Origin: Syntrophaceae bacterium
Lineage (GTDB): Bacteria > Desulfobacterota > BSN033 > UBA1163
Reading direction: 5' to 3'
Assembly (NCBI GenBank): GCA_013388635.1
Contig: JACAEX010000028.1
Coordinates: forward strand, 1 to 49,194
Length of the DNA stretch: 49,194 nucleotides
In this document: in pieces, positions 294 through 45,002 of the stretch
Position numbering within the stretch: position 1 is the first letter of the stretch
Layout: every line of letters begins with the position of its first letter
Notes under the pieces: generated by a model
Seen by the model: the letters and a program-made list of their open reading frames with translations, nothing else
Database searches by the model: none
Told to the model about the DNA's origin: nothing
Program-made: the position numbers and the translations under genes

Positions 294-1115
294 TTGGATA
301 CGGGATTGACACCGGTCAAATTAGAAAAGGAACAATTCGAAAGGATCAGTCAGCTGGTCTATCATCTCGCCGGGATCCACTTGCATGCTGGCAAACAGGA
401 GCTGGTCAACGCCCGTCTGACAAAGCGGCTGCGCGCGCTCGGGCTGAAGAATTTCGATGCCTATATGGAGTACTTGGAGTCCGGCAGCCATCAAGGGGAA
501 CTGGTCGCCATGATTGAGGCCATGACCACAAATAAGACCAGTTTCTTCCGGGAGTCCCAGCACTTCGACTACCTGCGCGAACGGATACTGCCGGAATTAA
601 AGGCTCGGAGGATCCGAATCTGGAGCGCAGGCTGTTCCTCCGGCGAAGAACCGTACTCCATTGCCATCGTGCTCAATGAGGCGATCCAGAACATCAGCCT
701 GTGGGACATCAGCATCCTGGCAACCGACCTCTCAACCCGGATGCTTGCAAGGGCCAGAAAAGGTGTCTACGAGATAAACCAGCTCCGGGAAGTACCGGCC
801 GTGCTCGTTTCCAAATATTTCACCTGCGTTGAGACCAATCCAGTGCGTCGCTATCAGGTGAACGAATCCATACGTCGACATGTGCACTTTGCCCGGCTGA
901 ATTTGATGGAGGCATGGCCCATGAGAGGCCCCTTCGATCTGATCTTCTGCCGAAATGTGATGATCTATTTTGACAAACCCACTCAGGGCCGACTGGTGAA
1001 CCGTTTCTGGAAGCTGTTAAAGCCCGGGGGCTATCTTTTCGTTGGCCATTCTGAAAGCCTAACAGGCTCCCCACATAAGTTTCGTTATGTGCAGCCTGCC
1101 ATCTATATGAAATGA
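294..1115 (+). CDS. cheR: CheR-type chemoreceptor methyltransferase
   Basis: A 273-residue SAM-dependent glutamate methyltransferase that would methylate MCP adaptation sites. An N-terminal helical CheR domain is followed by the catalytic domain: the SAM-binding stretch RIWSAGCSSGEEPYS is near residues 107-121, and FCRNVMIYFD is near residue 216, both hallmarks of CheR. The length is normal for a one-domain CheR. The start is a TTG at 294 preceded by GAGGATTTGAGGA; TTG at 306 is an alternative, so the exact N-terminus is uncertain. It is followed after 25 bp by cheD, so methylation and deamidation are encoded together. A second CheR carrying TPRs lies at 11.3 kb. Confidence 0.95.
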   Translation: MDTGLTPVKLEKEQFERISQLVYHLAGIHLHAGKQELVNARLTKRLRALGLKNFDAYMEYLESGSHQGELVAMIEAMTTNKTSFFRESQHFDYLRERILPELKARRIRIWSAGCSSGEEPYSIAIVLNEAIQNISLWDISILATDLSTRMLARARKGVYEINQLREVPAVLVSKYFTCVETNPVRRYQVNESIRRHVHFARLNLMEAWPMRGPFDLIFCRNVMIYFDKPTQGRLVNRFWKLLKPGGYLFVGHSESLTGSPHKFRYVQPAIYMK

Positions 1116-1140
1116 GAGCTGATCTGTCAAGGGGTGAGGA

Positions 1141-1623
1141 GTGATCCATACAGTGGGCGTTGCGGATATGAAGGTTTCTGGCACCAGAGGCGATCTGATC
1201 ATCACCCACGCCCTGGGAAGCTGTCTGGGCATTGCGGTATACGATCCGGTGGCCTGTGTCGGCGGGCTGCTCCATGCCATGCTCCCGCTTTCAACGATCG
1301 ATCCGGCCAAAGCCCAGAAAAATCCGTTCATGTTCATAGACACAGGCTTCCCGAGGTTGCTCGTCGAATGTTTCATGAACGGTGCCCAGAAGCAAAGGTT
1401 GGAGGTAAGGGTAGCAGGAGGCGCAAATTCCCAGGAGAGAGGGCAAGACGATTTCTTTCAGATCGGCAAGAGAAACCTGATCATATTGAGAAAACTTCTT
1501 TGGAAAGATGGGCTGCTCTTGAAGTCCTATGACGTGGGCGGCAGCAATTCGAGGACCATGTCACTCGAGATCGGAACAGGTAGGGTGACGATTAAGAGCG
1601 GGGGACAGACAAAAGATCTTTGA
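1141..1623 (+). CDS. cheD: CheD receptor glutamine deamidase
   Basis: CheD (160 aa) deamidates glutamines in MCPs and, in many bacteria, binds the phosphatase CheC/CheX. The catalytic triad expected for the family is visible: Thr22 and Cys28 in THALGSCLG, and His45 in GGLLHAMLP. The start is GTG at 1141, preceded by GGGGTGAGGA. Its place between cheR and the cheY-cheX pair suggests the classical CheD-CheC/X feedback on adaptation, although that partnership is inferred from the family. Confidence 0.95.
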   Translation: MIHTVGVADMKVSGTRGDLIITHALGSCLGIAVYDPVACVGGLLHAMLPLSTIDPAKAQKNPFMFIDTGFPRLLVECFMNGAQKQRLEVRVAGGANSQERGQDDFFQIGKRNLIILRKLLWKDGLLLKSYDVGGSNSRTMSLEIGTGRVTIKSGGQTKDL

Positions 1624-1661
1624 GCGAGGTCGCATAGGCACCCCCCTTAAAGGAGTGAGTC

Positions 1662-2045
1662 ATGGCATTGAACGTTCTTGTTGTGGATGACAGTTCGGTG
1701 ATGCGGCAGATCATCATCAAGACCCTGCGCCTCAGTCAATTGCCTCTGGGCGAGGTTCACGAGGCTCCTAATGGTCAAGAAGCATTGAAGGTCCTGGACA
1801 GCAAATGGATCGACCTCGCCCTGGTCGACATCAACATGCCCGTGATGGATGGGGAGGAGATGATCAATAGGGTGAGGCAGAATCCGGCGACTGCAGATCT
1901 GCCGGTCGTCATCGTCTCGACCGAAGGCAGCGAAGCCCGCAAGGAGGCGCTGATTCAAAAAGGGGCCGCTTTTGTCCACAAACCGTTCACGCCAGAGACC
2001 CTTCGGGATGCCATCCTGAAGACCTTAGGAGGATTGGATGAGTAG
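1662..2045 (+). CDS. Single-domain response regulator, CheY-like
   Basis: A stand-alone receiver domain of 127 aa. The acidic pair D9/D10, phosphoacceptor D56 (LVDINMP), conserved Thr in IVSTEGS and Lys in VHKPF are all present, so it should be phosphorylatable, probably by the CheA at 7.4 kb. No output domain is attached. AAAGGAGTGAGTC precedes the ATG. The stop overlaps the start of the CheX-like gene by 8 bp (2038-2045), suggesting translational coupling of a regulator with its phosphatase. Confidence 0.93.
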   Translation: MALNVLVVDDSSVMRQIIIKTLRLSQLPLGEVHEAPNGQEALKVLDSKWIDLALVDINMPVMDGEEMINRVRQNPATADLPVVIVSTEGSEARKEALIQKGAAFVHKPFTPETLRDAILKTLGGLDE

Positions 2046-2493
2046 AAAGCTTGAGACGGAACTCTACAAGGCAGCGGTGCTCACCTTCGAGGAACTGGGC
2101 TTTTTGCTCCCCACGCCGGAGATCGATGAGCAGCAGCTGAATGCCGAGGTCGAAGCAGCAGTGAGCGTCGATTTCGAAGGACCCTTCTCGGGAAAACTGC
2201 TGCTCAGGCTCTGTGGTGGACTTCTTCCTGTGATCGCCGCGAATATGCTGGGTGAAGAGGTAGTGCCCTCTAAAACCCTTCAGTATGACGCCTTGGGGGA
2301 GATTGCTAATGTGATATGTGGCAACATGCTGCCGAGCATTGCCGGCTCGAAGCACGTATTTCATGTCAGCGCACCCAAGATCAATGACAGCGTCGACCTG
2401 GTCCCTGTCGCAGAGGTACAGGTGGGTTTGGGTGCAGGCCGGGCAGATCTCCTTCTTTTCGTCTCGAAGTATCCGGCCCTTATGGAGGAATAG
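2038..2493 (+). CDS. CheX-like CheY-P phosphatase
   Basis: A 151-aa protein of the CheC/CheX/FliY fold group. The ExxN phosphatase signature is visible once, at E88-I-A-N91 within GEIANVICGNMLP. One signature, rather than the two seen in CheC, fits the CheX type, which works as a dimer on CheY-P. It starts inside the preceding cheY gene and is followed by cheB after 5 bp. Family assignment rests on the motif and gene order; calling it CheX rather than CheC is moderately certain. Confidence 0.82.
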   Translation: MSRKLETELYKAAVLTFEELGFLLPTPEIDEQQLNAEVEAAVSVDFEGPFSGKLLLRLCGGLLPVIAANMLGEEVVPSKTLQYDALGEIANVICGNMLPSIAGSKHVFHVSAPKINDSVDLVPVAEVQVGLGAGRADLLLFVSKYPALMEE

Positions 2494-2498
2494 TCGAA

Positions 2499-3572
2499 GT
2501 GATTCGAGTATTGATCGTAGATGATTCGGCGCTTGTGCGAAAAGTCCTGACCGCGGAGTTATCCAAGTATGGAGATATCGAGGTCGTCGGCAGCGCCGTT
2601 GATCCTTATGTAGCGCGAGACAAGATCGTTCGACTCCGTCCTGATGTGATCACCCTGGACCTTGAAATGCCGAGGATGAACGGCCTGGCGTTCCTGGCCA
2701 AGTTGATGAAATACTATCCCCTTCCTGTGGTCGTGGTCAGCTCGTTGACCCCAAAGAACAGTGAAAATGCCATCAGGGCACTGGAGCTGGGCGCGGTGGA
2801 GGTCATCTGTAAACCTGGATCAGCCTTCCGCACGCCCGAAATCTCGAACCAGCTGATCCATGCTGTCCGGGCAGCAGCCTCCGCACGGATCACCAAACAC
2901 CGGATGGACCTGGAAACGAAAGCCGGAGCAGGTGATTTACATCTACAGGCCACGGACCGGATCGTTGCGATCGGAGCGTCAACCGGCGGCACCCAGGCCA
3001 TCGAGTCCTTGCTAAAGGGCCTGCCCCGCAGTTGCCCGGGGATGTTGATCGTCCAGCATATGCCGGAGCAGTTCACCACGACCTTTGCCCGCAGGCTGAA
3101 CCAGATTTGCGAAATGGAGGTGCGCGAAGCCGAGGACAATGACCAGGTGATGCCAGGCGTCGCCCTTATCGCTCCGGGTAATCGGCACATGCTCCTTCAG
3201 CAAAGCGGATCGCATTATCAGGTGAGAATCAAAACCGGTCCTCCCGTAAACCATCAACGCCCCAGTGTCGATGTCCTGTTCCAATCCGTGGCACGCTATG
3301 CCGGCGCCAGCGCGATCGGCGTGCTCCTCACGGGAATGGGGGCTGACGGAGCAAAGGGGCTGCTCGCCATGCATGAGAGAGGGGCCTACACGCTCGCCCA
3401 GGATGAGGAAACTTCGGTTGTCTTTGGCATGCCGAAAGAGGCGATCAAGCTTGGGGCTGTCGACGAAGTCCTTCCGATTCAGCAGATTCCCCAAGCCATC
3501 GTCACTTTTCTGCAAAAACAGGGAAAGGGGAGAAACACCTATGCGGACCGAAAGGAGGTTGGCCATGCTTAA
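2499..3572 (+). CDS. cheB: CheB protein-glutamate methylesterase (first copy)
   Basis: A two-domain 357-aa CheB: an N-terminal receiver (D8/D9, phosphoacceptor D54 in [10 protein letters not shown]) and a C-terminal methylesterase/deamidase. The esterase catalytic residues are visible: Ser161 in GASTGGTQ, His in VQHMPEQF and Asp in [11 protein letters not shown]. It would remove methyl groups from MCPs when phosphorylated by CheA. The start is GTG at 2499 just after the preceding stop codon. The 3' end overlaps the next MCP gene by 8 bp. A second complete CheB lies in the same operon at 9.76 kb. Confidence 0.96.
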
Positions 3573-6500
3573 ATCGGGGCCGTTCTCAAGATTGAGAGAT
3601 AAGTTTATCTTCTATTTCCTCATGGGGGCCCTGCTGCCTTTGATAGGCATGAGCCTCTTCACATACAGCATCAGTAAGCCCATCTCTCTCCTGGGGCTCA
3701 AGATCGTCCTCATCATTCTCATCCTCATGGGTTTGATTTCAGTGGCAGCCTATCTGATCTCGAAGAGGATGTTTGATCCTCTTCGGAAATTTATCACCTC
3801 CGTGTCGACGATAGTTAGAACCGGGGATCTCGCGCAGAGAATTGAGGTCGAGAGGAAAGATGAAATCGGCCAGCTCTCACAGGCCTTTCAGGATATGATG
3901 AACTGGATGAATGAGATGGCAGGGGTCGTCTCCCGCATGGCCGAGGGAAATTTAGAACAGAAAGTGGAGGTGAGATCGGAGAACGATACGTTCGGCCAGG
4001 CCCTTCAGTCTATGATGGCAAGTTTAAAAAGTTCACAGAGGGCATTTCTGGAGTCAGAAGAGAAGTTTAGAGGTCTGGTCACCCGTGCCCCCATTGGGCT
4101 GAGCCTGATCGATAAGAGCGGTAGATATGAGTACGTCAATCCGAAGTTCACGGAGATATTCGGATACAGTCTGGAAGAGATTCCCATGGGTGAGAAGTGG
4201 TTTGAGAAGGCATATCCAGACCCGGAGTACCGCCGGAAGGCTATGGCCTCATGGAAAGAGGATTTAAGTCTCGCCAAGGCGGGTAAGTTGCGGCCCAGGG
4301 TCTTCACGGTGGCCTGTAAGGACGGCTCGACCAAGGAGATCCTCTTCACCTGCGCCGGCTTGAACGATGAGAGGTACCTGGTCACCTACGAGGATATCAC
4401 CGAGCGCAGGCTGGCAGAGCAGGCGCTGCGGGAATCGGAGGAACAATATCGCACACTGTTTGACACCTCCAAGGAGCCGCTCTTCATCGTTACCAAAGAT
4501 GGGAAATTTATTGACCTGAATGCGGCCGCCGTTGAGCTTTTGGGCTACGACAACAAAGAAGAGCTCATGAGAATTGGATCGATAGCCCAACTCTATTTCA
4601 ACCCGGAAGACCGAAGCAAGGTTCAGGAGATCCTGTCAAAACAGGACTACGTGAAGGATGTGGAACATGAGCTGAAAAGGAAAGATGGGAAGAAAATTTA
4701 TGCCCTGCTAACGGTGAACGCGAGGAAGGATCGTAAGGGGAATATCGTTGGCTATAAATTAACGATCCAGGACATCACCGAGCGCAGGCTGGCAGAAGAA
4801 GCCCTGCGCCAGAGCGAGGAAAAATACCGAAACATTCTTGAAAGTATGCAGGAGGGCTATTTTGAGGTTGACCTTGCTGGCAATTTTACCTTCGTTAATG
4901 ATGCCGAGGCCAGAAATCTTGGATATACTAAAGAGGAATTGATCGGAATGAACAACCGGCAGTATACTGATAAGGAGACTGCAAAGAGATTATTTCAGGT
5001 TTTTAATCAAGTCTTTAAAACGGGGGAACCGATTAAGGCATTTGATTTTGAAATTATCAGAAAAGACGGGACCAAAGGGGTCACCGAAGTCTCAGTGGCA
5101 CTTATAAGGGATCCAAAAGGGAAACCGATCGGATTCCGGGGCACTACTCGGGACATCACAGACCGAAAGCGTGTAGAACAGGCTTTATTAAAGAGTGAGG
5201 AGACGGCGAGAAAGCTGGCTCAAGAAAATGCAGCCGTGGCTGAGATTGGCCGAATCATCAGCTCAACCCTTAATATCGAAGAGGTCTACGGACGTTTCGC
5301 TGACGAAGTTCATAAAATTATCCCCTTTGACCGGGTCTCTGTAAATATCATCAATCCAGACCGAGCCTCGATCACCATCGCTTATTCCTCGGGAATTAAA
5401 GTGGGAGACATCCCGGCAGGAACGGTTCTCCCTTTGGATGACCCCTTGAGCGAAAGCATCATCAGCAAGAGATCGGGTTTCCTCCTCCAGCCGGAGGACG
5501 AAAAAGAGGTCGCTTTATATTCTCCCAACTTTGTCAGGCATTTTCGAGTCGGACTCCGATCGATGATGGCGGTTCCTTTGATCTCCAAGGATCAAGTCAT
5601 CGGGATTCTTCACCTCCAATCGCTCAAACCCAAGGCTTATACCGAATCGGATGTGAGGCTCGCTGAAAGAGTAGGCAATGAGATCGCAGGAGCGATTACC
5701 AATGCGCATCTCTTTGCCGAAAGCAAGCGGACAGGGGAGGCATTACGGGCAAGCGAGGAGAAATACCGCGCATTGTTTGACGAAGCGCCAGTCGGTTACC
5801 ATGAAATTGATACGGAGGGGCGAATCGTACAGGTCAACCGGACCGAGTTGGAAATGTTGGGCTACACCGCTCAGGAGATGTTGGGCGAGCCCGTATGGAA
5901 GTTCGTCGGCGAAGAGGAGAAATCCCGCCAAGCGGTCCTGGCCAAGTTGGGCGGAGCTTTGCCGACTTCTAAAGCCTTTGAGCGCGTTTACAGACGGAAG
6001 GATGGGTCGACATTTCCGGCGCTGATAGAAGACCGCGTCCTAAGGGATCGTGAAGGAAAGATCACGGGAATTCGCTCGACAATCAGGGACATCACCGAAC
6101 AGAAAAGATCGGAGGAGGCAGTAAAGCGGCTGGCCCAGGAGAATGCGATCGTGGCCGAGATCGGCCGAATTGTCAGTTCGACATTGGACATCCACGAGGT
6201 GTTCGAACAATTCAGCAAGGAAGTCAACAAGGTCATCCCCTTCAACTGGATCGCCATTTCGATTATTGATCACAACCAGGGCACTTTCCAAAATTCCTAC
6301 ACCTTCGGAGACGACATCCCGGAACGCCGCTCCGGGAAGGTGATCCCTCTGGCCGGTTCACTGACGGAAAAGGTCAGTCGGACACGGACGACCCAGCTCA
6401 TCCATATCGGGGACAGAAAGGAGGTCGGGGCCCAGTTTCCGGCACTCCTGCCTTTTTTCGACGCGGGATTTCGCTCGTTCATGTCAGTCCCCCTGATCTC

Positions 6501-7452
6501 CAAAGACGAGGTGATCGGAGTCCTTCACATTTACTCACACAAGGCCAACGCCTATACAGAGACAGACATGAACCTGACCAGGAGCATCGGTTCCCAGATT
6601 GCCGGGGCGATCGCCAACGCGCAGCTCTACGAAGAGATGACTCGGATGGTCAGACAGATCCGAGATGCAGGCCTCCAGGTCAGCACTGCCTCAGCTCAGA
6701 TTCGCGCGGCCTCTGAAGAGCAAGCCACAGGCGCAGCCCAGCAGTCCTCAGGGATCAGCGAGGTGACCACGACCATTGAAGAGCTCAGCACCACAGCCAC
6801 CCGCATTGCCAAAAACGCTGAAAATGTGGCGAAGATTGCGGAGGACACACTCGCCGGAATGCAGGAGATCAACACCAAGGTGAACGAGACCGCCAGAAAG
6901 ATTCTCTCTCTGGGTGAGAAATCCCAATCGATCGGCCACATCACCAAACTGATCGACGATATCGCTGACCAGACGAATCTCCTGGCTCTGAACGCAGCGA
7001 TTGAGGCTGCCCGGGCCGGAGAGGTGGGAAGGGGTTTTGCCGTGGTCGCGCAGGAGGTGAGGAAGCTCGCCGAACGTTCCTCTGAATCGACCGAGGAGAT
7101 CCGTCAGCTGATAAACGAAATCCAGGGGGAAACCAACTCCACCATTATGAGCATCGAGGGTTCGACCAAATGGGTCAAAAAGGGACTGGAGATGATGGAG
7201 GAGACAGCAAAGGCTGCAAAGGAGATCTCCATCGCGACCCAGCAGCAGAAGTTCGCATCGGATCAGGTGGTGCAGGCGATGCGGGAGATCGACTCTGTGA
7301 CCAAACAGTTTGTCTCTTCAACGAAACAAGCGGCCGCATCCGCAGTCCAGCTCAATACCCTATCCGAGGAGCTCAAGAGCGCGATAGCCAAATTTAAGTC
7401 AGAGACAGAGGAGATCCAAAGAACGAGGGGGCTTGAAGCATGCCTGAAATGA
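3565..7452 (+). CDS. Large multi-PAS/GAF methyl-accepting chemotaxis protein
   Basis: A 1295-residue chemoreceptor. From the N-terminus: two adjacent membrane segments (about 14-35 and 44-66), with almost no periplasmic loop; a HAMP-like linker (70-150); three PAS domains (about 165-285, 292-410, 418-540); GAF 1 (about 555-715); PAS 4 (730-850); GAF 2 (862-1020); and the MCP signalling coiled coil, whose hairpin tip is in [20 protein letters not shown] near 1133-1152. With so little periplasmic sequence, sensing should be cytoplasmic. The ATG at 3565 is chosen because AAAGGAGG lies seven bases before it; the frame is open further upstream and an ATG at 3541 lacks this site. It overlaps cheB by 8 bp and cheA by 13 bp. 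Confidence 0.94.
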
Positions 7453-9737
7453 AGGATCTGATCGCGATTTTCAAGGCGGAGACTGAAGAGCACCTGACCA
7501 AACTGGATAATGGGCTCGTGGAGTTGGAGAAACAACCGGACAACGTGGACCTCGTCACCAGTCTGAACAGAGAAGTACATACCTTGAAGGGCGCGGCCCG
7601 GGTCTTCGGCTTTTGTGAGATCCAGGACATCGCACACAGGATCGAGGACATATTCGAAGAGGTTGCCGCGAAAAGGGCCGTTTTCAGCTCCTTCATCGCA
7701 GAGAAGATATTTGAGGGACTCGATGCCATCCGGACGATCCTGGCACGTATTGTCCAGGAGGGGGCGATCGATATCGATGTCTCTGAGATATGCCGGGAGC
7801 TCGAGGCATGCATCACGGGAACAGAAGGGCTGAGACCGCAGAAGAAGCCAGAGGAGCAAGCCAGGGGAGAAGAAGAGGTCAGTAAGACTCAATTCCGAGC
7901 GGTAGACACATCGGAGAAAGAGGCAAGGGAGAAGACCCGTGAAAGGGTCATGGATCGCTTCAAAGAGGTGGGAGCCCCTCCCCTCTCCGGACAGGTCGAG
8001 GAATATATCCGCGTTCCCCTCAGCCGCGTGGATAAGCTCCTCTATCTGGTTGGGGAGGTGGTCGTCAACAAGATGAAGGCCTCGGCCGTGAGCGCCCAGG
8101 TAAAAAGACTTTCCAAACTCAGCAGGGAGGTGCAGAAAAGCATTTCCGGTTTAAGCGAGGCGATGAAGAGGGATCTCCCTTCCCAGAATGGAGAGATTGC
8201 CAAATGGCTCAGCCAGTGCGACGCCCTGGTTCAGAAGCTCAGGGAACATACGATCAAGCTATATGACGAGGTCTCCACAGAGGCATTTCATCTCGACCCG
8301 GTGATCGATGAGTTGCAGGCCAGGATGAAGGAGATGAAGATGCTCCCCCTGTCGACGATCGTGGAGGGCTTTCCCCGTATGGTGAGGGATATCGCCTCAC
8401 AGCAAGGAAAAGAGGTCAATCTGGTGATCTTTGGAGAGGAGACCGAGCTTGATAAGAAGGTGCTCGAGGGGATCAAGACCTCTCTCATCCACCTCCTGCG
8501 GAACTGCATCGACCACGGCATTGAGGAGCCGGAGTTGAGGATGCTCCTTGGCAAACCGAGGTACGGGACCATCAAGATCTCCGCCTCCCATGAGGCGGGC
8601 AATGTGGTGATCACCGTTGAGGATGACGGAAGGGGAATGGACATCGACCAGATCAGGCAGACCGCCTTAAACAAAGGCCTTTTGTCGAGCCATGACCTGG
8701 AGCAGATGACAGAAAAAGAGATATTGAACATCGTCTTCATGAACGGTTACTCCACGAGCCCGGTCGTCACAGATGTCTCTGGAAGGGGGATGGGGCTGGA
8801 TATCGTCAGGCGCGACATCACCAATCTAAAAGGCCAGGTAACCCTGGATACCCAGAAGAGTAAGGGAACCAGGTTCACGCTGGTTTTGCCGTTGACCATT
8901 GCTATTATTCAGGTACTGCTCGTAAAGGTCCAGAACATGCCCTTCGCCATTCCGATGCTCTCCATTACGGAGACCGTAAAGGTGAACATGGACGAGGTGG
9001 CGACGATTGAAGGAAGGATGGCCATCCATTTCCGGGAAGAGATCCTGCCGCTTGTCAGATTGAGCGAGGTGCTGGAACTGCCGGCGACGAGCCGCGAAGA
9101 GGAGAAGGTGAAAAAAGAGGTGCCGGTGGTAATTTTGACCTACCTCGATAGACGGGTCGGGTTTATCGTCGATGAGATCGTCGGCGAGGAAGAGGTTTTC
9201 ATAAAGGGTTTGGGCAAACATTTGGGCAAGGTGAAAAATGTGAGTGGCGCCATGATCATGGCCTCAGGAGAGGTGGTCGTGGTCTTGGACACGGCAGATC
9301 TGATCGCTCATAGCGCCCTCAGCCTTCGTCTCTCAAGGGAGAAGCCCCGTACGGATAGGAGAAAGCGCAAAGAGACCAGAATCCTGATCGTGGAAGACGC
9401 CTTCTCGGCGAGGGAGCTGGAGAAGAGCATCCTGGAGACCCATGGCTACGTGGTCGATACAGCGGTCGACGGTCTGGATGCCCTGAACAGGATGGCAGGG
9501 ACCCGGTACGACCTCATCGTCAGCGATGTGGAGATGCCGAGGATGGATGGATTCGAACTCTGCAGGACCTTGAAGAAGAAGGAAGGATACAAGGACATCC
9601 CGATCGTGATGGTCACCTCCCTGGAGAAGGAAGAGGATAAGAGGCGGGGCATGGAAGCCGGGGCTTCGGCTTACATCGTCAAAAGCGCCTTTGAGCAGAC
9701 AAATCTTCTGGATACCATTCAGCGATTGGTAGGATGA
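7440..9737 (+). CDS. cheA: Hybrid chemotaxis histidine kinase CheA with receiver domain
   Basis: 765 aa. An HPt domain (residues 1-110) carries the phosphorylatable His47 in HTLKGAA. No clear P2 (CheY-docking) domain follows, only a charged linker (about 140-180). A dimerisation region is at about 185-300, and the HATPase domain at about 305-455, with N box LLRNCIDHG and G boxes DDGRGMD and [10 protein letters not shown] CheW-like domain (about 470-610) and a C-terminal receiver (about 635-760, phosphoacceptor D696 in [11 protein letters not shown]) complete it. This hybrid layout occurs in chemosensory systems controlling motility or other outputs; the receiver may act as a phosphate sink or an additional output. 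The start overlaps the preceding MCP gene. Confidence 0.95.
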
Positions 9738-9759
9738 TGTCGAACAAGGAGTCAGAACC

Positions 9760-10797
9760 ATGATACGGGTATTGGTGGTTGACGATTCTCCGCTGATGTG
9801 CAAGATCCTAACCAATATCATCAACTGCGATCCCCAGATTCTGGTGGCAGCGGTTGCGACCAATGGGAAAGAGGCGGTCGATCTCGTACCCCGCCTCAAA
9901 CCGGACATCATCACCATGGATATCGATATGCCGGTCATGGACGGATTTGAGGCGACCAAGCAGATCATGGCCTATCACCCGACCCCGATCCTGATCGTCT
10001 CCTCCACGGTCTTCAAAGCAGGGATGGAGAAGGTATTCAAGGCGATCTCCCAGGGCGCACTGGATGTGATTGACAAAAGTGACTTAGAGGTCATGGGAGA
10101 TAGAAAGTCCGGAGAGGCCCTGATCGCAAAGATAAAATTCTTGACCGGGGTCAGGGTCACCCATCGCCCCTCAGCCAAGTTGCGACAGGAGCGGCCCGTT
10201 CCGGACCTGAAGGTTCCCAAGGAGAAGATCTCCGATCGGATCGTAGCCCTCGTGGCCTCAACCGGCGGCCCACAGGCACTTCTCGAAATACTGAAAAGAC
10301 TTCCTGAAGATTTCCCCTGCGGCATCGTCATCGTTCAACACATCACCAATGGTTTTCTGCCCGGCCTGGTGGACTGGCTTGGCAAGGAGTGCAAGATCAA
10401 GGTAAAGATCGGTGAGGATTCGGAAGAGATACGACCTGGAGTGGCCTACATCGCTCCGGACAACCTCCAGATGAGGGTGGCGGATGGCGGAAGGATCACC
10501 CTCTCGGATGAACCCCCTTGTGGAGGCCACCGACCTTCTGGAGATGTCCTGCTGGAATCCGTCGCCAGGACGTACGGAAAAGGAAGCGTGGCCGCGATCC
10601 TGACCGGAATGGGTCGAGACGGAGCCATGGGAATGAAGGCGATCAAACAATGCGATGGCAGGACCCTTGCCCAAAATGAAAAGAGCTGCGTCGTCTTTGG
10701 AATGCCAAGCGCCGCCATCGAAATGAACGTGGTCGATAAGGTCCTCCCGGTGGAAAGAATGGCGGAAGAGATTCTGCAGATGGTGAGACAGACATGA
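9760..10797 (+). CDS. cheB: CheB protein-glutamate methylesterase (second copy)
   Basis: A 345-aa receiver-methylesterase. The phosphoacceptor is D54 (TMDIDMPVMDG). Esterase residues are in VASTGGPQ (Ser167), VQHITNGF (His) and LTGMGRDGAMG (Asp). AAGGA precedes the ATG. It differs clearly in sequence from the CheB at 2.5 kb, so it is not a recent tandem duplicate; it may serve a different receptor set or the second CheR. Its stop overlaps the cheW start by four bases (ATGA). Confidence 0.95.
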   Translation: MIRVLVVDDSPLMCKILTNIINCDPQILVAAVATNGKEAVDLVPRLKPDIITMDIDMPVMDGFEATKQIMAYHPTPILIVSSTVFKAGMEKVFKAISQGALDVIDKSDLEVMGDRKSGEALIAKIKFLTGVRVTHRPSAKLRQERPVPDLKVPKEKISDRIVALVASTGGPQALLEILKRLPEDFPCGIVIVQHITNGFLPGLVDWLGKECKIKVKIGEDSEEIRPGVAYIAPDNLQMRVADGGRITLSDEPPCGGHRPSGDVLLESVARTYGKGSVAAILTGMGRDGAMGMKAIKQCDGRTLAQNEKSCVVFGMPSAAIEMNVVDKVLPVERMAEEILQMVRQT

Positions 10798-11321
10798 AGC
10801 CCTGGCTTCAGGCGGAGAGACGATCGGTCCAACGAGCGGTACAGCCGGAAGGCCGCGAGAGAAGAGGGGAGAGACAGATCCTGGTCTTTGACCTATCCTC
10901 CGAGGAACTGGGGCTGGATCTCTCCTGTGTGCGAGAGGTCTTGAGGCCTCAGGAGATCTTTCCCCTTCCCAGAACCCCCGGCTTCATTGAGGGGGTGATC
11001 AATTTGAGAGGACACATCGTGGCCTTGATCGATCTGCAGAAAAGGCTGAGCGCCAAACCGATAGAAGAGAAGGCCAACAGGAGGATCATCGTCTGCAAGG
11101 TGAACCGGTTCATCGTCGGACTGATCGTCAACAACCTGAGGGAGATCATCACCCTATCCGGAGAGGATATTCGGCCAGTCCCCGAGGTGGTATCGATGCA
11201 GATGGATGCGGAGGTCCTCTCGGGCGTGGCAAAGGTCAAAGAAAAGATCATCCCCATCCTGGATCTGGAACGTATCCTGACGAAGAAGGAAGTCAGCGAA
11301 CTATCGAGGCTTGGAGAATGA
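10794..11321 (+). CDS. cheW: CheW coupling protein
   Basis: A 175-aa single CheW domain that would bridge MCPs and CheA in the signalling array. A short basic N-terminal tail (about 28 residues) is followed by QILVFDLSSEELGLDL, the INLRG segment (GVINLRGHIVALIDL) and a C-terminal PILDLERIL, all typical of CheW. It is coupled at both ends by four-base ATGA overlaps with cheB and with the TPR-CheR gene, implying a single tightly coordinated translation unit. Confidence 0.94.
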   Translation: MKPWLQAERRSVQRAVQPEGRERRGERQILVFDLSSEELGLDLSCVREVLRPQEIFPLPRTPGFIEGVINLRGHIVALIDLQKRLSAKPIEEKANRRIIVCKVNRFIVGLIVNNLREIITLSGEDIRPVPEVVSMQMDAEVLSGVAKVKEKIIPILDLERILTKKEVSELSRLGE

Positions 11322-12898
11322 AGAATATCCTTCCCCTTTCAGCCGAAGACTTCGCCCTCTTTCAGGAGCTGCTCATCGGAGCAAGCGGCCTCTACTTTGA
11401 AGAAAGCAAGAGCCAGTTCCTCCAGCTCGCTCTCTATCAGCGCTTACAACACCGCGGTTACGATTCCTATCGGGAATATTACAACCTTCTCAAATTCCAT
11501 CCCGAGGGCCGCCTTGAGATGCGGGAGCTCCTCGATCTGATCACGATCGGGGAGACCTATTTCTTCAGGAATAAGCCTCAGTTTGACGTGCTCATGAAGT
11601 TTGTCCTGCCCGAGATCGTGCAGAGAAAGATGTATTCGCGGGATAAGTCCATACGCGTATGGTCCGCCGGGTGCTCGGCCGGGGATGAACCCTATTCCAT
11701 CGCCATTGCCATTATGGAAGCGGTCCCCTTCTACGAGGAATGGAAGATCTCCATTCTGGGCACGGATATAAACCGAAATGCACTGGCCTGCGCAGAAGAG
11801 GCCCGCTATGGAGAGAAGAGCATCGCCCATCTCCCAAAGGAATACCTGGAAAAGTATTTCGAGATCCGGGGTTCAACGTATCGGCTTAAGGAGAACGTCA
11901 AGGAGCTGGTCCACCTGGAATATCATAATCTGGCCAAAGATCCGTTTGTCCACCAAGGGATGCAAAACGTAGATATTATCTTCTGCAGAAATGTGATCAT
12001 ATATTTCGATCCCCAGACCACCCGGCGAGTGATTGAAAATTTCTATGACTGTCTCCTCCAGGATGGATATCTCTTTCTCGGCCATGCGGAAACGTTGTGG
12101 CAGGTGACCAACAAATTTGAGGGAATCGAGTTTCCTCAAACCTTCACCTATAAGAAGCGATTGGGGCCGCTTCAGGAGGAGGCGATGAGGCCATTTATGG
12201 CCGTTCCGGAGATCGGGTTCGAAGCCCTGACCTCTGTCACAAAAACAGAGGCAGAAAACCGCCTCCTCCCCGAGTCCTTCAGGATCCAGCCTCAGGGGAA
12301 ACCCGGGTTCCTTGAGGGAGCCCAAACCCCTCCTCCACGGGCTGAAAGAGAGCCCGACTTTCAGGAGAAAATTGAATCGGCCTACTATAAGGCGACCCTC
12401 TGTTTAAGAGAGATCAAGGATCAGTCCCCTCTCTCCCAGGCCGATCGCTTGATGGTGCAAGATGAGAACGACATCCGCGCCTGCTTGAACCAGGCGACCC
12501 TCTTGGCCAACGAGGCAAAATATAAGGAGGCGGCAGAGATTCTTGCAAAGGTCGTCGAGGTGGACAACCTCAGTGTGGAGGCCTATTATCTCCTCGGTGT
12601 TCTGTCATATAAGAGCGGCGACCTGGAGGGCGCACAGACCCATTTCAGGAAGGTGATCTATGTGGACCCCGATTCAGTCCTTGCCTATTTTAACCTCGGA
12701 AACATCTACCTCTATCAGAAGAGATTCAGCGAAGCGGCCAGGGAATTCAGGAATGCGATCCGGCTGCTGGAAAGAAGGCCGAAGGATGAGCAGGTGAAGT
12801 TTTGCGAAGATTTCACGGTGGAATTTCTTTTGAGGGCGTGCAGGAATACTCTCGTGGAGATCTCCAAAAGAGGAGAAGGATATGAACGAACAGGATAA
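11318..12898 (+). CDS. CheR methyltransferase fused to C-terminal TPR repeats
   Basis: 526 aa. Residues 1-275 are a full CheR methyltransferase (SAM site VWSAGCSAGDEPYS; FCRNVIIYFD). After a proline/glutamate-rich linker (about 285-380), at least two to three TPR units follow (for example AYYLLGVLSYKSGDLEGA and AYFNLGNIYLYQKRFSEAA). TPR-bearing CheRs are known from alternative chemosensory systems such as Frz and Wsp, where the repeats mediate partner binding; that role here is inferred. It overlaps the next gene by 17 bp. Confidence 0.92.
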   Translation: MKNILPLSAEDFALFQELLIGASGLYFEESKSQFLQLALYQRLQHRGYDSYREYYNLLKFHPEGRLEMRELLDLITIGETYFFRNKPQFDVLMKFVLPEIVQRKMYSRDKSIRVWSAGCSAGDEPYSIAIAIMEAVPFYEEWKISILGTDINRNALACAEEARYGEKSIAHLPKEYLEKYFEIRGSTYRLKENVKELVHLEYHNLAKDPFVHQGMQNVDIIFCRNVIIYFDPQTTRRVIENFYDCLLQDGYLFLGHAETLWQVTNKFEGIEFPQTFTYKKRLGPLQEEAMRPFMAVPEIGFEALTSVTKTEAENRLLPESFRIQPQGKPGFLEGAQTPPPRAEREPDFQEKIESAYYKATLCLREIKDQSPLSQADRLMVQDENDIRACLNQATLLANEAKYKEAAEILAKVVEVDNLSVEAYYLLGVLSYKSGDLEGAQTHFRKVIYVDPDSVLAYFNLGNIYLYQKRFSEAAREFRNAIRLLERRPKDEQVKFCEDFTVEFLLRACRNTLVEISKRGEGYERTG

Positions 12899-13829
12899 AA
12901 TAGAGGCCTACCTTTCGTCTGTGAGGCACGACCTGCGCAGCCAGCTCATGGTCGTTCGGGAGGGGACAAGCATGATCCTGGACGGCATCGGAAACTCAAA
13001 CTGCGAGACCTGCTTCACCCTCTTGAGGCCTGCGCTTGAGAGCACGGATGAGCTCAATAAACTGATCGGGGAACTGCTCAGCACCTCCCGCTTCAACGCC
13101 ATGCTGAAGCCGGCCCTCTCCACAAAAAAAGAGCAACCCCTGGAGGAAAAGAAGGAACCGCCCGCGGGTGAACTCGAGATCCTGAAGTATGAACTGATGG
13201 GGATGATCTCCCATGTCGTCCGCACCCCGCTGGCCGTGGTTAAAGAGAGCCTCTCCCTGGTGCTGGACGGAATCCCTGGAAAACTGAACGGCAAACAGAA
13301 TGAACTGCTCTCCATTGCAAAACTGGAGGTTGATGGTCTGATTCAATCGATTGAAGAAATATTCCAGAAATCATGGGATGAGGTCGTGGGTGGTGCGCGG
13401 ACCGAGTTTCCCACTGAGGCAATCCCCGTCAAGGAAGCGGAGAAGCCAAAAAAGAAGGAGAGGGTACTGATCGTGGAAGACCAGCCGGTCATTCTCAACA
13501 TGCTCAAGATGAGACTGGAGGCAAACAATTATGAGGTGATCACCGCCCTCGACGGTCAGGAAGGTTTGGACAAGGCCCAAAAGGAAGGGCCGAATCTGAT
13601 CATTCTGGACATCATGCTCCCCAAAATCAATGGGTACAAGGTCTGTCAGCTTCTCAAGGCCGATCCAAAATATCGTGCGATTCCCATCATCATCTCCTCT
13701 GGAAGGACCCCTCAGGAGATCAGGAAGGTGGGACAAGAGGTGGGAGCGGATGCGTACGTATCCAAACCCTTCGAGGCCGAAGAACTGCTTTCAAAGATGA
13801 GGGAGCTTTTAGAAAAGAGGGAAAAGTGA
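12882..13829 (+). CDS. Double-HisKA/receiver protein without an ATPase domain
   Basis: 315 aa with an unusual layout. Residues about 5-75 resemble a HisKA dimerisation helix pair with an H-box at His16 (RHDLRSQL). Residues about 98-170 resemble a second one with His111 (SHVVRTPLAVV), lacking the acidic residue usually next to the His. No HATPase N, G1 or G2 box is visible. A complete receiver follows (about 193-312; phosphoacceptor D243 in LIILDIMLP; Lys in VSKPF). It cannot autophosphorylate by itself as far as can be seen, so it may be a phosphorelay intermediate, a CheA target or a scaffold. It is embedded in the che operon by a 17-bp overlap with the upstream gene. Confidence 0.8.
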   Translation: MNEQDKIEAYLSSVRHDLRSQLMVVREGTSMILDGIGNSNCETCFTLLRPALESTDELNKLIGELLSTSRFNAMLKPALSTKKEQPLEEKKEPPAGELEILKYELMGMISHVVRTPLAVVKESLSLVLDGIPGKLNGKQNELLSIAKLEVDGLIQSIEEIFQKSWDEVVGGARTEFPTEAIPVKEAEKPKKKERVLIVEDQPVILNMLKMRLEANNYEVITALDGQEGLDKAQKEGPNLIILDIMLPKINGYKVCQLLKADPKYRAIPIIISSGRTPQEIRKVGQEVGADAYVSKPFEAEELLSKMRELLEKREK

Positions 13830-13845
13830 GGAGAATGGAGAAGTG

Positions 13846-14616
13846 ATGGCAAAAAGGATGGCCAAGAAGAAAATCTTGGTAATCGATGATATGCCGAACG
13901 TCGTGACCATGCTAAAGGCCAGACTGGAGGCAAGCGGATACGAGGTGATCGCTGCTTTTGACGGACAGCAGGGCCTGGCCCATGCCTATGCAGAGAAACC
14001 GGATCTGATCATTTTGGATATCGTCATGCCTGCGGGCGGAGGTTATTCGGTCTATTCGAGACTCAAGATGTCTCCCAAAACCCGCTCTGTCCCGGTTATT
14101 TTCCTCACCGCCAAGGATAGGCCGGAGGATGTGGCAAGGGCTTACAAGTTAGGTGCCCAGTACTATGTGAAGAAACCCTATAAGCCAGAGATGCTGCTGG
14201 AGACGGTCAAGAAGGTATTGGAACCCTCCGTGCATCCGGAGCAGCCGCGGGGACTGCGGAAGAGAATCATGGTGATAGCCGAAGACCCGGAGATCACCGA
14301 GCTCGAGAAGTTGGGCGAAATGGGTTACGACGTGACGATTGTGTCGAGCATCAAAGAGGGATCCGATGAGGCCAGAAAGGAGAGCCCGGACGTGATCATT
14401 GTGGATGGCGCACTGGTCAAGGCGAACAACTACGATGGTTTTTATCAACTGAAACTGGAATTCGCCCTGACCAAAATACCCATCATCATATCTGTCACAA
14501 AGGAAGAGTCGGAGGAATTTCAAAAAAGGCTCGGGGATTTTAGCAGCTATTGCCTCAAGCCCTTTAACACCATCGACCTCTTGGGACGAATCCGCGTCGC
14601 CCTGCAAAAAGATTGA
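13846..14616 (+). CDS. Tandem receiver-domain protein
   Basis: 256 aa with two receiver folds. The first (residues 8-125) is intact: ILVIDDMP acidic pair, D58 in LIILDIVMP, Thr in FLTAKD and Lys in VKKPY. The second (about 138-255) is degenerate: the expected acidic pair is replaced (MVIAEDPEITEL, offset), although an Asp in IIVDGALV and a Lys in CLKPF remain. There is no DNA-binding or enzymatic output. ATG at 13846 was preferred over the adjoining GTG at 13843 because GGAGAATGGAG precedes both. It is probably the last gene of the che operon. Confidence 0.85.
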   Translation: MAKRMAKKKILVIDDMPNVVTMLKARLEASGYEVIAAFDGQQGLAHAYAEKPDLIILDIVMPAGGGYSVYSRLKMSPKTRSVPVIFLTAKDRPEDVARAYKLGAQYYVKKPYKPEMLLETVKKVLEPSVHPEQPRGLRKRIMVIAEDPEITELEKLGEMGYDVTIVSSIKEGSDEARKESPDVIIVDGALVKANNYDGFYQLKLEFALTKIPIIISVTKEESEEFQKRLGDFSSYCLKPFNTIDLLGRIRVALQKD

Positions 14617-14654: not shown

Positions 14655-17384
14655 TTGGACAGAGGAAAGCTGACAGAACCATTACCCACCCCCACTGCCG
14701 GAGCAACCTGGCATCGCCTCGACCTTCATCTGCACAGTCCGGGTGTGCTGCCTTTTGTACCGCCCAAGGGGATGAAGCGTGAGGATGTGAGAGGCCTGGC
14801 CGATACCTATGTGGAACAACTTGCATCTCAGGGGATCTCCGTCGGTGCCATAACAGATTACAACGGAGTCAACATCGAATGGTTTGAGGTGACCGCTGCA
14901 AAGGCCACGAACCGGGGCATGACGCTTCTTCCCGGCGCTGAGATGACATTCAAAATGGGAAAGGCAGCGCTCCATCTGTTAGCCATCTTCTCAGGCGATA
15001 CGGATCTCAGCGGCCTGAACAACTTTCTCCGCTCGCTCGACAAAGACCCGGCTAACCCCTTACTTGACAGCCGGGGTTCTCATCGGGACATTGACCTGAA
15101 GGTCAACCTGACAGATGCCCTTAAAGATCTCAGAACCCGGTTCAACTGTCTACTGATCTTCCCTCACCCGGATCAGACGAATGGACTGAGCAAGAGTCTG
15201 ACAGATGAATTGGCTGCCAAACTCCTCGACGAGATAAGACCGGATGCCATCGAATCCTTTCCGGAGAAGGAGAGAAAGAGGCTCCAGGCCACAGGCGTGC
15301 TACCGGCGAACTTCTGGGACCATCTGGCCTATGTCGAATTCTCCAACCCGAAGCGTGTGGAAGAGATTGGAACCCGATCCCGAGCCACCTACCTCAAACT
15401 GAGCGCAACCCATTTAGACGCCCTCCGGCTGGCGTTCCATGACCCAGAGACCCGCCTGTCGGTCGGAAATATTCCGAGAGCTATCCATCCGAGAATCCGA
15501 AGCCTGACCATCACCGGATCAGGCTTCTTGAGAAATCTGAACATCTCCTGGAACCAGGATTTAAATGTGATCGCAGGAGGCAGAGGCGCAGGCAAATCTG
15601 CGATTCTCGAAAGCCTCCGGTATGCCTTCGCCACCCAACCCTTCTCGGACCGATCTTACCATGAGGAACTCGTCCGCCATGCCCTGGGCAGAGGAGGCAG
15701 AATCGAGGTGATCCTGGACAGGCCTGGCCAGGACGGTAAGGTCCGTCAGTATCGGATCGTCCGGGTTTGGGGTGAGGAACCCCGCACCTTTCAACTCAGT
15801 CCTGAAAAACCCCTTTTGGTGGCTCCCTCTGATCTTCTCGGCCCGGGTGCCGGGCCCACTATTTTTGGCCAGCGAGAGATCTATGCGGTCTCAGAAAGCG
15901 AAGAGTATCGACTCGCATTCCTCGACGAATTGATTGGCGAAGAGGCCCGCAAGCGTGCAGATGCGGTAAGCAAAGCCATGGAATCGCTTAACGCGAATGC
16001 AAGCGCGATACTGGACCTGCAGGCAAAGCTGGCGAAGCGAGAAGAGTACAGCCAGAGGCTCAGAGCCATTGAACAGGAGATCGAAACCCACAGAAAGCAG
16101 GTTGCGGAGAGGCTGAAGGAAGTGGCCGATCTTCGGAGCGTGGGCGAAGGCATCCGGGATGCGACCAATGCGGTCAGAAATGCCCTGGCCGAAGCAGGAA
16201 AGAGACGTCCTGTTCTTCTTTCCTCTCTTGAAAAGGCTTACCAGAACCTCCTTCATGCAAAAAGCAGGCATCCTGCCGTCGTTGAGGAAAGCATAAAGGT
16301 TCTCGGCGTTCTCCAGGAAAGCCTCAAGGTTGTCCTCGACGATGAAACCACCCTTTATGAGCAGGCCGTACAGAATCTCACACGGGTTGAGATGCGCTGC
16401 CAGGAGAAGCTCCGTCTTCTGGAAGAAGAGACCAAGCGAATGGAACGAGAGGCGAAGAAAGAATCGGCCGGCCAGGATCGAATGCTGAGATTGACAGAAG
16501 AAAGAGACTCCCTCTCATCTTTCATGGCAGAATTTAGCGGAATCGACAGCCGTCTGAAAACCCTCAGACAGAAACGTCAGGACCTTCTTCAACAGATCCG
16601 AGATTGCAGGGAGGCTCAGAACAGATTAAGAAGGGAAAGGGCCGACGCCATTGCAGGATCTCTCAACGGTCGGCTCCAGATACAGGTGGAATTGAAGGGG
16701 CAAAAAGGGAACTATAAGGAACAGCTCTCTCTGCTCTTAAATGGATCGGACCTCTCTCAGGAGGCGATCGATCAACTCGTGCTTCCCGAGGCGACAGATG
16801 GGATTGCGCTCGCCGAAGCGGCCCGTGCAGGAAGCAAGGAGGTGCAGGTGCGTTTCGGCCTCAAACCTGAAATGGCGGACCACTTGGTCCGCTGGCTCAC
16901 CGCTGAGGAATCTCGCCTCTTCGAGCTGGAAACATTGATTCCTCAGGATGCCCTACGACTGAAACTGAGGATGGACGGTCAGTACCGTTCTCTCGAACAT
17001 CTCTCAGTGAGTCAGGGAGCTGCAGCCATTCTACTTCTTCTCTTCGGGCTTGAGAGCCGGATCCTTATCGTCGATCAACCGGATGATTACCTCGACGACC
17101 GTTTCATCCGTGAAGAGATCGTTCAAATTCTGAGAGAACAGAAAGGCATGAAAGACCAGAACCCGGGACGTCAGATCATCCTGGCAACCCATGATGCTAC
17201 GATTCCTGTGATGGCCGATGCCGAGCTTGTGATGCCTCTCGAGGTGCGGGACGATTGCGCTCAGATCATCGGCCGGGCATCGATTGACGACCGGTCCATC
17301 AGGGAGTTTATCAAAACCGCTATGGAGGGCGGAAAAGAGGCTCTTAAACAGCGCATGGAAAAATACGGTGGATTGCCGCTTTAG
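14655..17384 (+). CDS. PHP-domain / SMC-like ATPase
   Basis: 909 aa. The N-terminal PHP phosphoesterase-type domain (about 19-270) has HxH at H25/H27 (LDLHLHSPG), ITDYNG where the family usually has TDHN, PGAEMTF, and FPHPDQTNG. An SMC/Rad50-like ATPase then begins with Walker A GGRGAGKS (about 308-315). A long coiled coil rich in Glu/Arg/Leu spans about 430-700. A signature-like LSVSQGAAAILLLL lies near 783, and Walker B ILIVDQPDDYLDD near 803. This architecture resembles the TrlF-type AAA-like ATPases. A role in nucleic-acid processing or defence is possible but inferred. The start is TTG at 14655 after AGGTGA, 38 bp downstream of the che operon; no better start is visible before the PHP motif. 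Confidence 0.85.
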   Translation: MDRGKLTEPLPTPTAGATWHRLDLHLHSPGVLPFVPPKGMKREDVRGLADTYVEQLASQGISVGAITDYNGVNIEWFEVTAAKATNRGMTLLPGAEMTFKMGKAALHLLAIFSGDTDLSGLNNFLRSLDKDPANPLLDSRGSHRDIDLKVNLTDALKDLRTRFNCLLIFPHPDQTNGLSKSLTDELAAKLLDEIRPDAIESFPEKERKRLQATGVLPANFWDHLAYVEFSNPKRVEEIGTRSRATYLKLSATHLDALRLAFHDPETRLSVGNIPRAIHPRIRSLTITGSGFLRNLNISWNQDLNVIAGGRGAGKSAILESLRYAFATQPFSDRSYHEELVRHALGRGGRIEVILDRPGQDGKVRQYRIVRVWGEEPRTFQLSPEKPLLVAPSDLLGPGAGPTIFGQREIYAVSESEEYRLAFLDELIGEEARKRADAVSKAMESLNANASAILDLQAKLAKREEYSQRLRAIEQEIETHRKQVAERLKEVADLRSVGEGIRDATNAVRNALAEAGKRRPVLLSSLEKAYQNLLHAKSRHPAVVEESIKVLGVLQESLKVVLDDETTLYEQAVQNLTRVEMRCQEKLRLLEEETKRMEREAKKESAGQDRMLRLTEERDSLSSFMAEFSGIDSRLKTLRQKRQDLLQQIRDCREAQNRLRRERADAIAGSLNGRLQIQVELKGQKGNYKEQLSLLLNGSDLSQEAIDQLVLPEATDGIALAEAARAGSKEVQVRFGLKPEMADHLVRWLTAEESRLFELETLIPQDALRLKLRMDGQYRSLEHLSVSQGAAAILLLLFGLESRILIVDQPDDYLDDRFIREEIVQILREQKGMKDQNPGRQIILATHDATIPVMADAELVMPLEVRDDCAQIIGRASIDDRSIREFIKTAMEGGKEALKQRMEKYGGLPL

Positions 17385-17725
17385 TCCAGAACCCGAACGA
17401 TTTTAGAACCAACCTCTCCTCTATCTCTCCGATCGATCATCAAACCTGATCAGGCCAGATACGTTTGCCGGGTGAACAAGAATTATTCACTCAATGATCA
17501 ATAACTATTCATCGGTGCCACAAATTTAGCTCCTTACCTTCCTGTTCAAAAGCCTCAAACTTGAAAATAGCTCAATTATTCCAAAGAGTTATACTTTTAT
17601 TAACCGATTTGGCATTGGAGATGCAAATTCAGGGGTGAGCCTTTCAAACCTCCTGGCACGAAGGCCTGGGCTGGTTGAGGGTCGATCCAGAGCAACCCGA
17701 TGGAAATTGCTCGAAGGAGGAGATT
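17385..17725. other. Non-coding interval before the W-rich peptide genes
   Basis: The 341 bases between the PHP/SMC gene and the first small W-rich gene hold no convincing gene. The first 200 bases are AT-rich and look unstructured. From about 17605 a sigma-54-like promoter candidate is followed by a G/C-rich leader of about 90 bases ending in a strong Shine-Dalgarno (AAGGAGGAG). No clear terminator for the upstream operon is visible. Confidence 0.6.
17609..17626 (+). promoter_or_regulatory. Candidate sigma-54 promoter for the W-rich small genes
   Basis: TTGGCA at 17609-17614 and TGCA at 17622-17625 place GG (17611-17612) and GC (17623-17624) exactly ten bases apart, the -24/-12 spacing of RpoN promoters. 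Transcription would start near 17636, giving a leader of about 90 nt before the ATG at 17726. Several less conserved positions deviate from consensus, and no enhancer-binding protein gene is adjacent, so this is a candidate only. Confidence 0.35.
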
Positions 17726-17926
17726 ATGGCCAATCACTTGGAAGATGCGATGAACTCTAACAATGGTTCCGGTTGGAAGCACAAACTGGAAAAATGGATT
17801 GTCTCTTTTCACACCGAATCAAGAGCGGATCAGGATAATGGGAATAATGGGACCGGCCAAACAGACTCGAATGGGAAGTCAGAAAATCTGGATTTGAAAG
17901 AAAAGATCCCGGAATGGTGGTGGTAA
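17726..17926 (+). CDS. Small W-rich protein, copy 1 (unknown function)
   Basis: 66 aa, not recognised. The ATG at 17726 follows AAGGAGGAGATT. The N-terminal third (MANHLEDAMNSNNGSGWKHK...) is shared with copy 2. A central Asn/Gly/Asp-rich low-complexity stretch follows, then a short charged segment ending in EWWW at the stop codon. Two similar elements can be seen, GWKHKLEKWI and LKEKIPEWWW, that is [W/L]-K-x-K-[L/I]-x-x-W, separated by a disordered linker. There is no signal peptide and no cysteine. Synonymous differences relative to copy 2 show it is translated. It could be a peptide precursor, a membrane-active amphipathic peptide or a small adaptor; none of these can be chosen from sequence. 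Confidence 0.75.
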   Translation: MANHLEDAMNSNNGSGWKHKLEKWIVSFHTESRADQDNGNNGTGQTDSNGKSENLDLKEKIPEWWW

Positions 17927-18016
17927 TCACCGCTTCGAGCTCACGTCTGAACTCCCGGACGGGTTGAGGATGGCTTGACGAAACCCGACGGAAACCGCTC
18001 AAAAAAGGAGGGGATC

Positions 18017-18205
18017 ATGGCCAATCACGTGGAAAATGCGATGAATTCTAATAATGGCTCCGGTTGGAAGCACAAACTCCAAAAATGGATCGCTTCTATT
18101 CCCGCCGCACCAGAAGAGGACCGGAATGAGGAGACCGGTTTAAAAGGCTCAAATGGAGATTCACATTGGAAGGAGAAGATCGAGCGGTGGGGATGGCAGC
18201 AGTGA
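18017..18205 (+). CDS. Small W-rich protein, copy 2 (unknown function)
   Basis: 62 aa, paralogous to the gene 90 bp upstream. The ATG at 18017 follows AAAAAAGGAGGGGATC. The conserved block contains AMNSNNGSGWKHKLQKWI; the middle is shorter and richer in Glu/Asp; the end reads HWKEKIERWGWQQ. The W-K-x-K-[L/I]-x-x-W element thus occurs twice, more clearly than in copy 1. It is convergent with the MoaD-like gene (23 bp gap), with no visible terminator between them. No function is assigned. Confidence 0.75.
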   Translation: MANHVENAMNSNNGSGWKHKLQKWIASIPAAPEEDRNEETGLKGSNGDSHWKEKIERWGWQQ

Positions 18206-18228: not shown

Positions 18229-18501
18229 TCATCCTCCCGCAAGCAATATGACCAGGTGGATTTCATCTCCTTCCTTTACGGGTCTGGCGAGCTCATTCGG
18301 GTGCGCGCTGGTATGATTCACATAAACCTCGACGACATTGTGAAGCTTATCCTTCCTGGCAAAGAGCGCCTTCTCCATTCCAGGGTACTGCCTGATGAGA
18401 TCCTTCAGACATTCTCCCACCGTGTTTCCTCGTACCTCCACCACCTCCAGGCCATTGGTGTACTGTCGATGGGTGGCATGAATATGCACCTTAATCGCCA
18501 T
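18229..18501 (-). CDS. MoaD/ThiS-family ubiquitin-like sulfur carrier
   Basis: 90 aa with a beta-grasp pattern: IKVHIHATHRQYTNG at the start, a helix VGECLKDLIRQYPG, VEVYVNH, and the C-terminal EGDEIHLVILLAGG ending in the diagnostic Gly-Gly. That tail is what an E1-like enzyme adenylates or thiocarboxylates in molybdopterin or thiamin biosynthesis. The start at 18501 is set by GGAGCAAGAG immediately upstream; the frame is open to 18564 without a better site. The gene lies directly downstream of, and partly over, a broken ThiF-type gene, so its original activator appears lost locally. It would need an E1 from elsewhere. Confidence 0.85.
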   Translation of the reverse strand: MAIKVHIHATHRQYTNGLEVVEVRGNTVGECLKDLIRQYPGMEKALFARKDKLHNVVEVYVNHTSAHPNELARPVKEGDEIHLVILLAGG

Positions 18502-43176: not shown

Positions 43177-43554
43177 TCAATCGTTGTCGTTATAGGTGTG
43201 ATGGAGCCCCTGATCCTTTTCTGTTGCCATGGCTTGGGCCATCTCTTCGGTCATTGTTGCGCCGTGTCGGTATTGGAATGGCCACATGCTCTTAAGATCA
43301 AAAAGGCCGATGCGGTCGCCATCATGCAGAATATGATTTAGGTCGGGTTGAAGACCTGGCATTGCACTCAACTGGCCGCTGATGAAAGTGACCCCGCGTT
43401 CCTTTGTGTCCATTCCAAGCCATACCAGAAGATCAGCCATGGTGCTCCCTTGAGCGAGTCTGACCCGTAAGTTGGCGAAATGGCCCTTGCTCGCCTTACC
43501 TCCATACCTTGCCAGCCGACCGTAGAGCCAAACATCGACGACGATGTCCGACAT
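43177..43554 (-). CDS. MoaD-like protein with C-terminal extension, no Gly-Gly tail
   Basis: 125 aa. The beta-grasp pattern runs from VVDVWLYGRLARYGG through VRLAQGSTMADLLVWLG to LHDGDRIGLFDL, where a MoaD would end in xGG. Instead it continues with KSMWPFQYRHGATMTEEM and a polar tail ending NDND. It therefore cannot be thiocarboxylated in the usual way. It starts one base after the stop of the canonical MoaD gene, with AGGAGG at proper spacing, so both are made from one mRNA with AOR and the maturase. A structural or tungstopterin-handling role is possible; the function is unknown. Confidence 0.8.
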   Translation of the reverse strand: MSDIVVDVWLYGRLARYGGKASKGHFANLRVRLAQGSTMADLLVWLGMDTKERGVTFISGQLSAMPGLQPDLNHILHDGDRIGLFDLKSMWPFQYRHGATMTEEMAQAMATEKDQGLHHTYNDND

Positions 43555-43555
43555 C

Positions 43556-43795: not shown

Positions 43796-43799
43796 CTTC

Positions 43800-44987: not shown

Positions 44988-45002
44988 GTTCGAGAAGAAA
45001 AG

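Follow-up and report, generated by a model that had tools for sequence, protein, structure and literature searches.

Two tandem, tryptophan-rich small open reading frames in a Syntrophaceae bacterium as candidate orphan microproteins

Whether two short open reading frames (ORFs) rich in tryptophan, which follow each other in the genome of a Syntrophaceae bacterium, are real genes, and what their products might do, is the question raised by contig 84 of a 3.4 Mb draft genome (GenBank assembly GCA_013388635.1, contig JACAEX010000028.1). The whole stretch of 49,194 nucleotides was analysed and is referred to here as the window. An earlier note on this DNA had singled out two ORFs of 66 and 62 codons, and both are found on the + strand, copy 1 (P0002) at 17726-17926 and copy 2 (P0001) at 18017-18205, each closed by a stop codon. 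The two proteins are 62% identical and detect each other in a whole-genome search with an E value of 1.6e-14, and their likeness is certainly beyond chance. The repeat exceeds the genes, as it starts inside the leaders at about 17660 and about 17949, and the units of leader plus gene are spaced by about 289-291 nt, with 80% identity across 130 nt. Judged from this layout, the pair represents one short unit, duplicated in tandem, that consists of a leader, a strong Shine-Dalgarno sequence and 60-odd codons. A 15-nt inverted repeat with one arm upstream of copy 1 (17636-17650) and the other in the linker of copy 2 (18137-18151) is 93% complementary and is probably due to chance.

The pair occupies a gap between a TrlF-like PHP/AAA ATPase gene (14655-17384; NF045780, 346 bits, below the cut-off of 350) and a MoaD/SAMP1-like gene (18229-18501), which lies on the - strand, is convergent with the pair and faces it with its 3' end. 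A chemotaxis-type operon ends with the TrlF-like gene. This large operon (294-14616) includes CheR, CheD, CheX, a PAS/GAF MCP receptor, CheA with a receiver domain, CheR-TPR and receiver-domain proteins, and the true start of the MCP receptor is probably the ATG at 3565, which follows AAGGAGG. Farther along the window, at 43177-46831, an aldehyde ferredoxin oxidoreductase-like gene adjoins a tungsten-cofactor radical SAM maturase (TIGR04317, 433 bits).

Among the 17 genomes of the family, only one (G003) carries an orthologue of the TrlF-like gene, which is preceded by the same response-regulator and kinase genes. A different ORF, nitroreductase-like by eye, stands downstream of this orthologue, and the locus contains no trace of the pair. 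A role of the pair as a peptide or accessory protein of the TrlF system is disfavoured by this one comparison. Of the 17 family genomes, 16 carry the MoaD gene, whose neighbours vary among them (ferredoxin, acyl-CoA dehydrogenase), and no copy of the pair lies near any of these loci. Since the surroundings of both the TrlF and the MoaD genes differ in relatives, the pair sits at a seam of two blocks that exists in this genome only, between the che-TrlF block and the MoaD gene.

Do the two ORFs look like genes at their starts? Each is preceded by a strong Shine-Dalgarno sequence, as had been claimed, with AAGGAGG ending 5 nt ahead of the ATG in both copies (17714-17720 and 18005-18011, + strand). 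Eight sites of the form AAGGAGG-N4-8-ATG occur in the 49-kb window; two of them belong to the pair and all six others open genes of 160-1295 codons. Farther upstream, the two leaders (17660-17725 and 17949-18016, + strand) can be aligned and share the motif AACCCGAYGGAAAYYGCTC, so that the common leader sequence described in the earlier note holds. This element, also written AACCCGAYGGAAA, stands as AACCCGATGGAAA at 17694-17706 in copy 1 and as AACCCGACGGAAA at 17982-17994 in copy 2, and no other site in the genome matches it at up to two mismatches.

A leader that is conserved along with the ORF raises the possibility that what is conserved here is an element at the RNA or DNA level, either a leader element or a duplicated regulatory RNA, and that the ORFs are incidental. 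Synonymous-looking changes are found in the leader too, and one relative contains a similar string. The latter is a 28/31 match to the copy 1 leader (L172, positions 109-138; E ~0.03 for the bases searched) in G010, a genome from a different genus of the family, where it runs antisense within a 125-aa ORF beside a REP-like palindrome, and no peptide ORF follows it downstream. The match is probably due to chance, although it may be a remnant. The equivalent hairpin that had been reported in the two leaders did not hold up, as their minimum-energy folds are dissimilar and neither exceeds dinucleotide shuffles in stability (z-scores of +0.25 and -0.24 for the leaders, +0.64 and -0.65 for the core). 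This absence of a fold signal, together with the lack of an Rfam match for the leader, speaks against a known structured RNA. Furthermore, the longest conserved block lies inside the ORF and the start sites are of the gene type, which makes an RNA or DNA element an unlikely explanation of the conservation.

The pattern of substitution was examined with a permutation test that retains the substitutions. The first 25 codons differ by five synonymous and three replacement changes, exactly as the earlier note had counted; its argument that these changes point to translated and selected peptides is weak when it stands alone (p ~0.09), and because the 10 leader codons directly before the ATG behave alike in the same frame (four synonymous, two replacement), the pattern is not specific to the ORF. 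Along the full protein-guided alignment, replacement changes are fewer than in the permuted sets (p=0.003), while the unguided DNA alignment gives p=0.07, or 0.02 if the absence of stops is also required, and the leader and the 25 codons together give p=0.025. The dN/dS ratio is 0.09 in codons 1-25 and 0.27 over the whole length, values that come from two paralogues only, as no homologue was found in the genomes searched. In a codon-blind DNA alignment, the ORF contains gaps of 9 and 9 nt, both in frame, and the leader contains gaps of 1, 2 and 3 nt. In addition, codon usage ranks the gene frame first of six in both copies, with scores at the edge between the real genes of the window and wrong frames. 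On these sequence features it is likely that both ORFs are translated, and the pair probably represents two real genes. The wider claim that the peptides are translated, under selection and without a known family receives moderate support from the start sites, the in-frame indels and the lack of family matches.

Relatives of the pair were sought at several depths. When a profile built from both proteins was run on 395 phylum genomes and on 23 class genomes, the latter including 17 of the family with the genome of origin counted, it retrieved only the pair itself, and single-sequence searches against relatives, class and phylum returned no homologue. The 25-residue block, for which the earlier note had suggested a homologue search, likewise found none in any of the genome sets searched. 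Scans for the conserved peptide and for the degenerate pattern WKHKxxKW across one genome per GTDB species and viral contigs yielded no relative, within the limits of a method that requires exact short matches and that a strongly diverged family would escape. A degenerate DNA scan for WKHK[LIFM]xKW in the GTDB genomes and viral contigs returned 52 and 44 stretches, and none of these is a relative. No relative was found among the plasmids and phages searched, and a 30-nt plasmid match across the start region (E 0.5) is attributed to chance. The same applies to the weak matches of the homologue searches, one of which is in the genome of origin (C51), as they are antisense to a gene or broken by stops, and the matches that remain for a looser motif in the family genomes are unrelated frames. 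Pfam, NCBIfam, PHROG and PADLOC contain no family that matches the pair, which agrees with the earlier failure to recognise one, and a PDB sequence search gave no match.

Since no relative appears in any searched genome, the pair is best read as lineage-specific orphan small proteins; within the profile and motif searches, no homologue was found outside the lineage. By kind, the two are orphan intergenic small ORFs, which are common in bacteria according to a survey (PMC11188072). They resemble the ORFs of that survey in being short, intergenic, lineage-restricted and mostly disordered, and may share their signs of purifying selection, whereas they differ in their tandem duplication with a leader, in their strong ribosome sites and in a Trp/Lys motif that is repeated within each protein.

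Such a setting also invites the reading that the ORFs are young and translated but functionless, in which case a spacer with a good ribosome site would have been duplicated and would be drifting, and the Trp/Lys motifs would be low-complexity accidents. The lack of a homologue in the genomes searched and the location at a synteny seam are both compatible with this, and lineage-specific small ORFs with high turnover were common in the survey of Enterobacteriaceae (PMC11188072). However, dN/dS is below 1 and the indels are in frame despite high synonymous divergence, and the motif is retained at 4/4 positions while the linker varies, which together render functionless ORFs a rather unlikely account, albeit one that keeps some weight.

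The architecture of the proteins carries the argument further. Each copy contains 5 W (7.6-8.1% of residues, where 20 proteins of the window average 0.9%), and the previously described arrangement of a conserved N-terminal third, a low-complexity middle and W-rich ends is evident in both. Each protein also contains the two [WL]KxK[LI]xxW elements that had been noticed, at residues 17-24 and 57-64 in copy 1 and at 17-24 and 51-58 in copy 2. In copy 1, the first motif is WKHKLEKW (17774-17797, + strand) and the second is LKEKIPEW (17894-17917, +), a decayed form. In copy 2, they are WKHKLQKW (18065-18088, +) and WKEKIERW (18167-18190, +). Only three sites in the genome carry the pattern TGGAARNNNAARHTNNNNNNNTGG, and all of them lie within the pair. 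The linker between the motifs is rich in N/G/S/E/D and poorly conserved. Copy 2 is internally repetitive, as NHVENAMNSNNGSGWKHKLQKW aligns with NEETGLKGSNGDSHWKEKIERW over 22 residues (score 50, shuffle p=0.0004), and the comparison of the halves of copy 1, where the second motif has decayed (LKEKIPEWWW), gives p=0.05. The internal repeat may descend from an ancient duplication within the gene, or a useful motif may have been reached twice by convergence, and two sequences are compatible with either origin. Structure models place a helix at residues 16-33 of copy 1, over the first motif, and helices at 16-27 and 49-60 of copy 2, over both motifs, with a disordered linker in each protein, at a low mean confidence (pLDDT 54.7 and 59.0). 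The hydrophobic moment of motif 1 is marginally above that of shuffles (p 0.07 and 0.03), and that of motif 2 is not above shuffles. Of the other proposals in the earlier note, a small adaptor or an amphipathic membrane peptide may each apply, with an amphipathicity that is modest in motif 1 and not significant in motif 2. The net charge is -4 and -1.

A conserved N-terminal third followed by a variable C-terminus had suggested exported or modified peptide precursors, in which the N-terminus would act as a leader and the W-rich C-terminus as the product. A GSG ahead of motif 1 and one peptidase-C39 gene elsewhere in the genome (G000:C91) would agree with this proposal, yet the conservation of the motif persists at the C-terminus, and neither export nor modification genes were recognised in the pair's neighbourhood. 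A RiPP precursor would be expected to have a maturation enzyme gene alongside, and none is found in the flanking genes: no maturase, exporter or protease lies beside the pair, and the one SPASM radical-SAM protein that was recognised in the window, 26 kb off, is identified as a tungsten-enzyme maturase by the NCBIfam equivalog TIGR04317 (433 bits). A typical double-glycine leader is also absent. The precursor reading of the earlier note is not supported by these results and is very unlikely.

Membrane-active peptides, such as leaderless bacteriocins, are another conceivable product. Some leaderless bacteriocins occur as tandem paralogues and form Trp/Lys amphipathic helices. The pair likewise consists of short tandem paralogues without a leader peptide, and motif 1 combines Trp and Lys with a raised hydrophobic moment. 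Leaderless bacteriocins (PMC6131525) are comparably small peptides that lack a leader, but the proteins of the pair are acidic overall and contain a long, polar, disordered linker. A peptide of that kind would be expected to be cationic, in contrast to the net charges given above, and to have transporter or immunity genes in its cluster, while no such gene adjoins the pair, whose neighbours are the TrlF-like ATPase and MoaD. A membrane-active peptide of this sort has only a faint likelihood.

The reading that we tentatively favour, at somewhat less than even confidence, is that the pair encodes orphan, duplicated intracellular microproteins in which a flexible linker would join two Trp/Lys helices that serve for docking. 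The two-motif layout of each product is evident from the sequence, the folding of the motifs as helices is weakly predicted by the models, and the docking, its target (a membrane face or a protein) and any role are what we infer. According to this proposal, the protein would stay in the cytoplasm, and both motifs would fold into short Trp/Lys helices upon contact. The flexible linker would then allow one molecule to reach two docking sites, either on the inner membrane face or on a repeated protein surface, which would make the product a small two-handed adaptor or tether. The paralogues would supply two versions of it, which differ mainly in the linker and the last residues, and the lineage-specific occurrence of the pair could reflect recent birth or strong divergence. 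The nearest analogy in mode of action is a multivalent linker with Trp stickers, such as EPYC1 or PYCO1 (PMC10288592), in which short Trp-containing helical motifs are repeated on a disordered linker. This is an analogy only, as the proteins of the pair have two motifs and about 60 residues, are far smaller and share no sequence homology with these linkers. A bolder version, in which the pair would found a new family of bivalent microproteins that carry the WKxK[LI]xxW docking helix twice on a flexible acidic linker, tether a membrane or partner complex, and have multiplied as neighbouring copies within a single bacterial lineage under a common leader control element, is improbable at present.

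For now, the pair is one further uncharacterised orphan, and it is more convincing than most orphans because of its start sites and its duplicated motif. If the two ORFs are translated and functional, they would offer a clear example, on a small scale, of how a lineage-specific protein is assembled by repeating a docking motif and is then duplicated once it has been born. Linker and motif would then evolve at different rates, which would bear on how orphan microproteins gain function.
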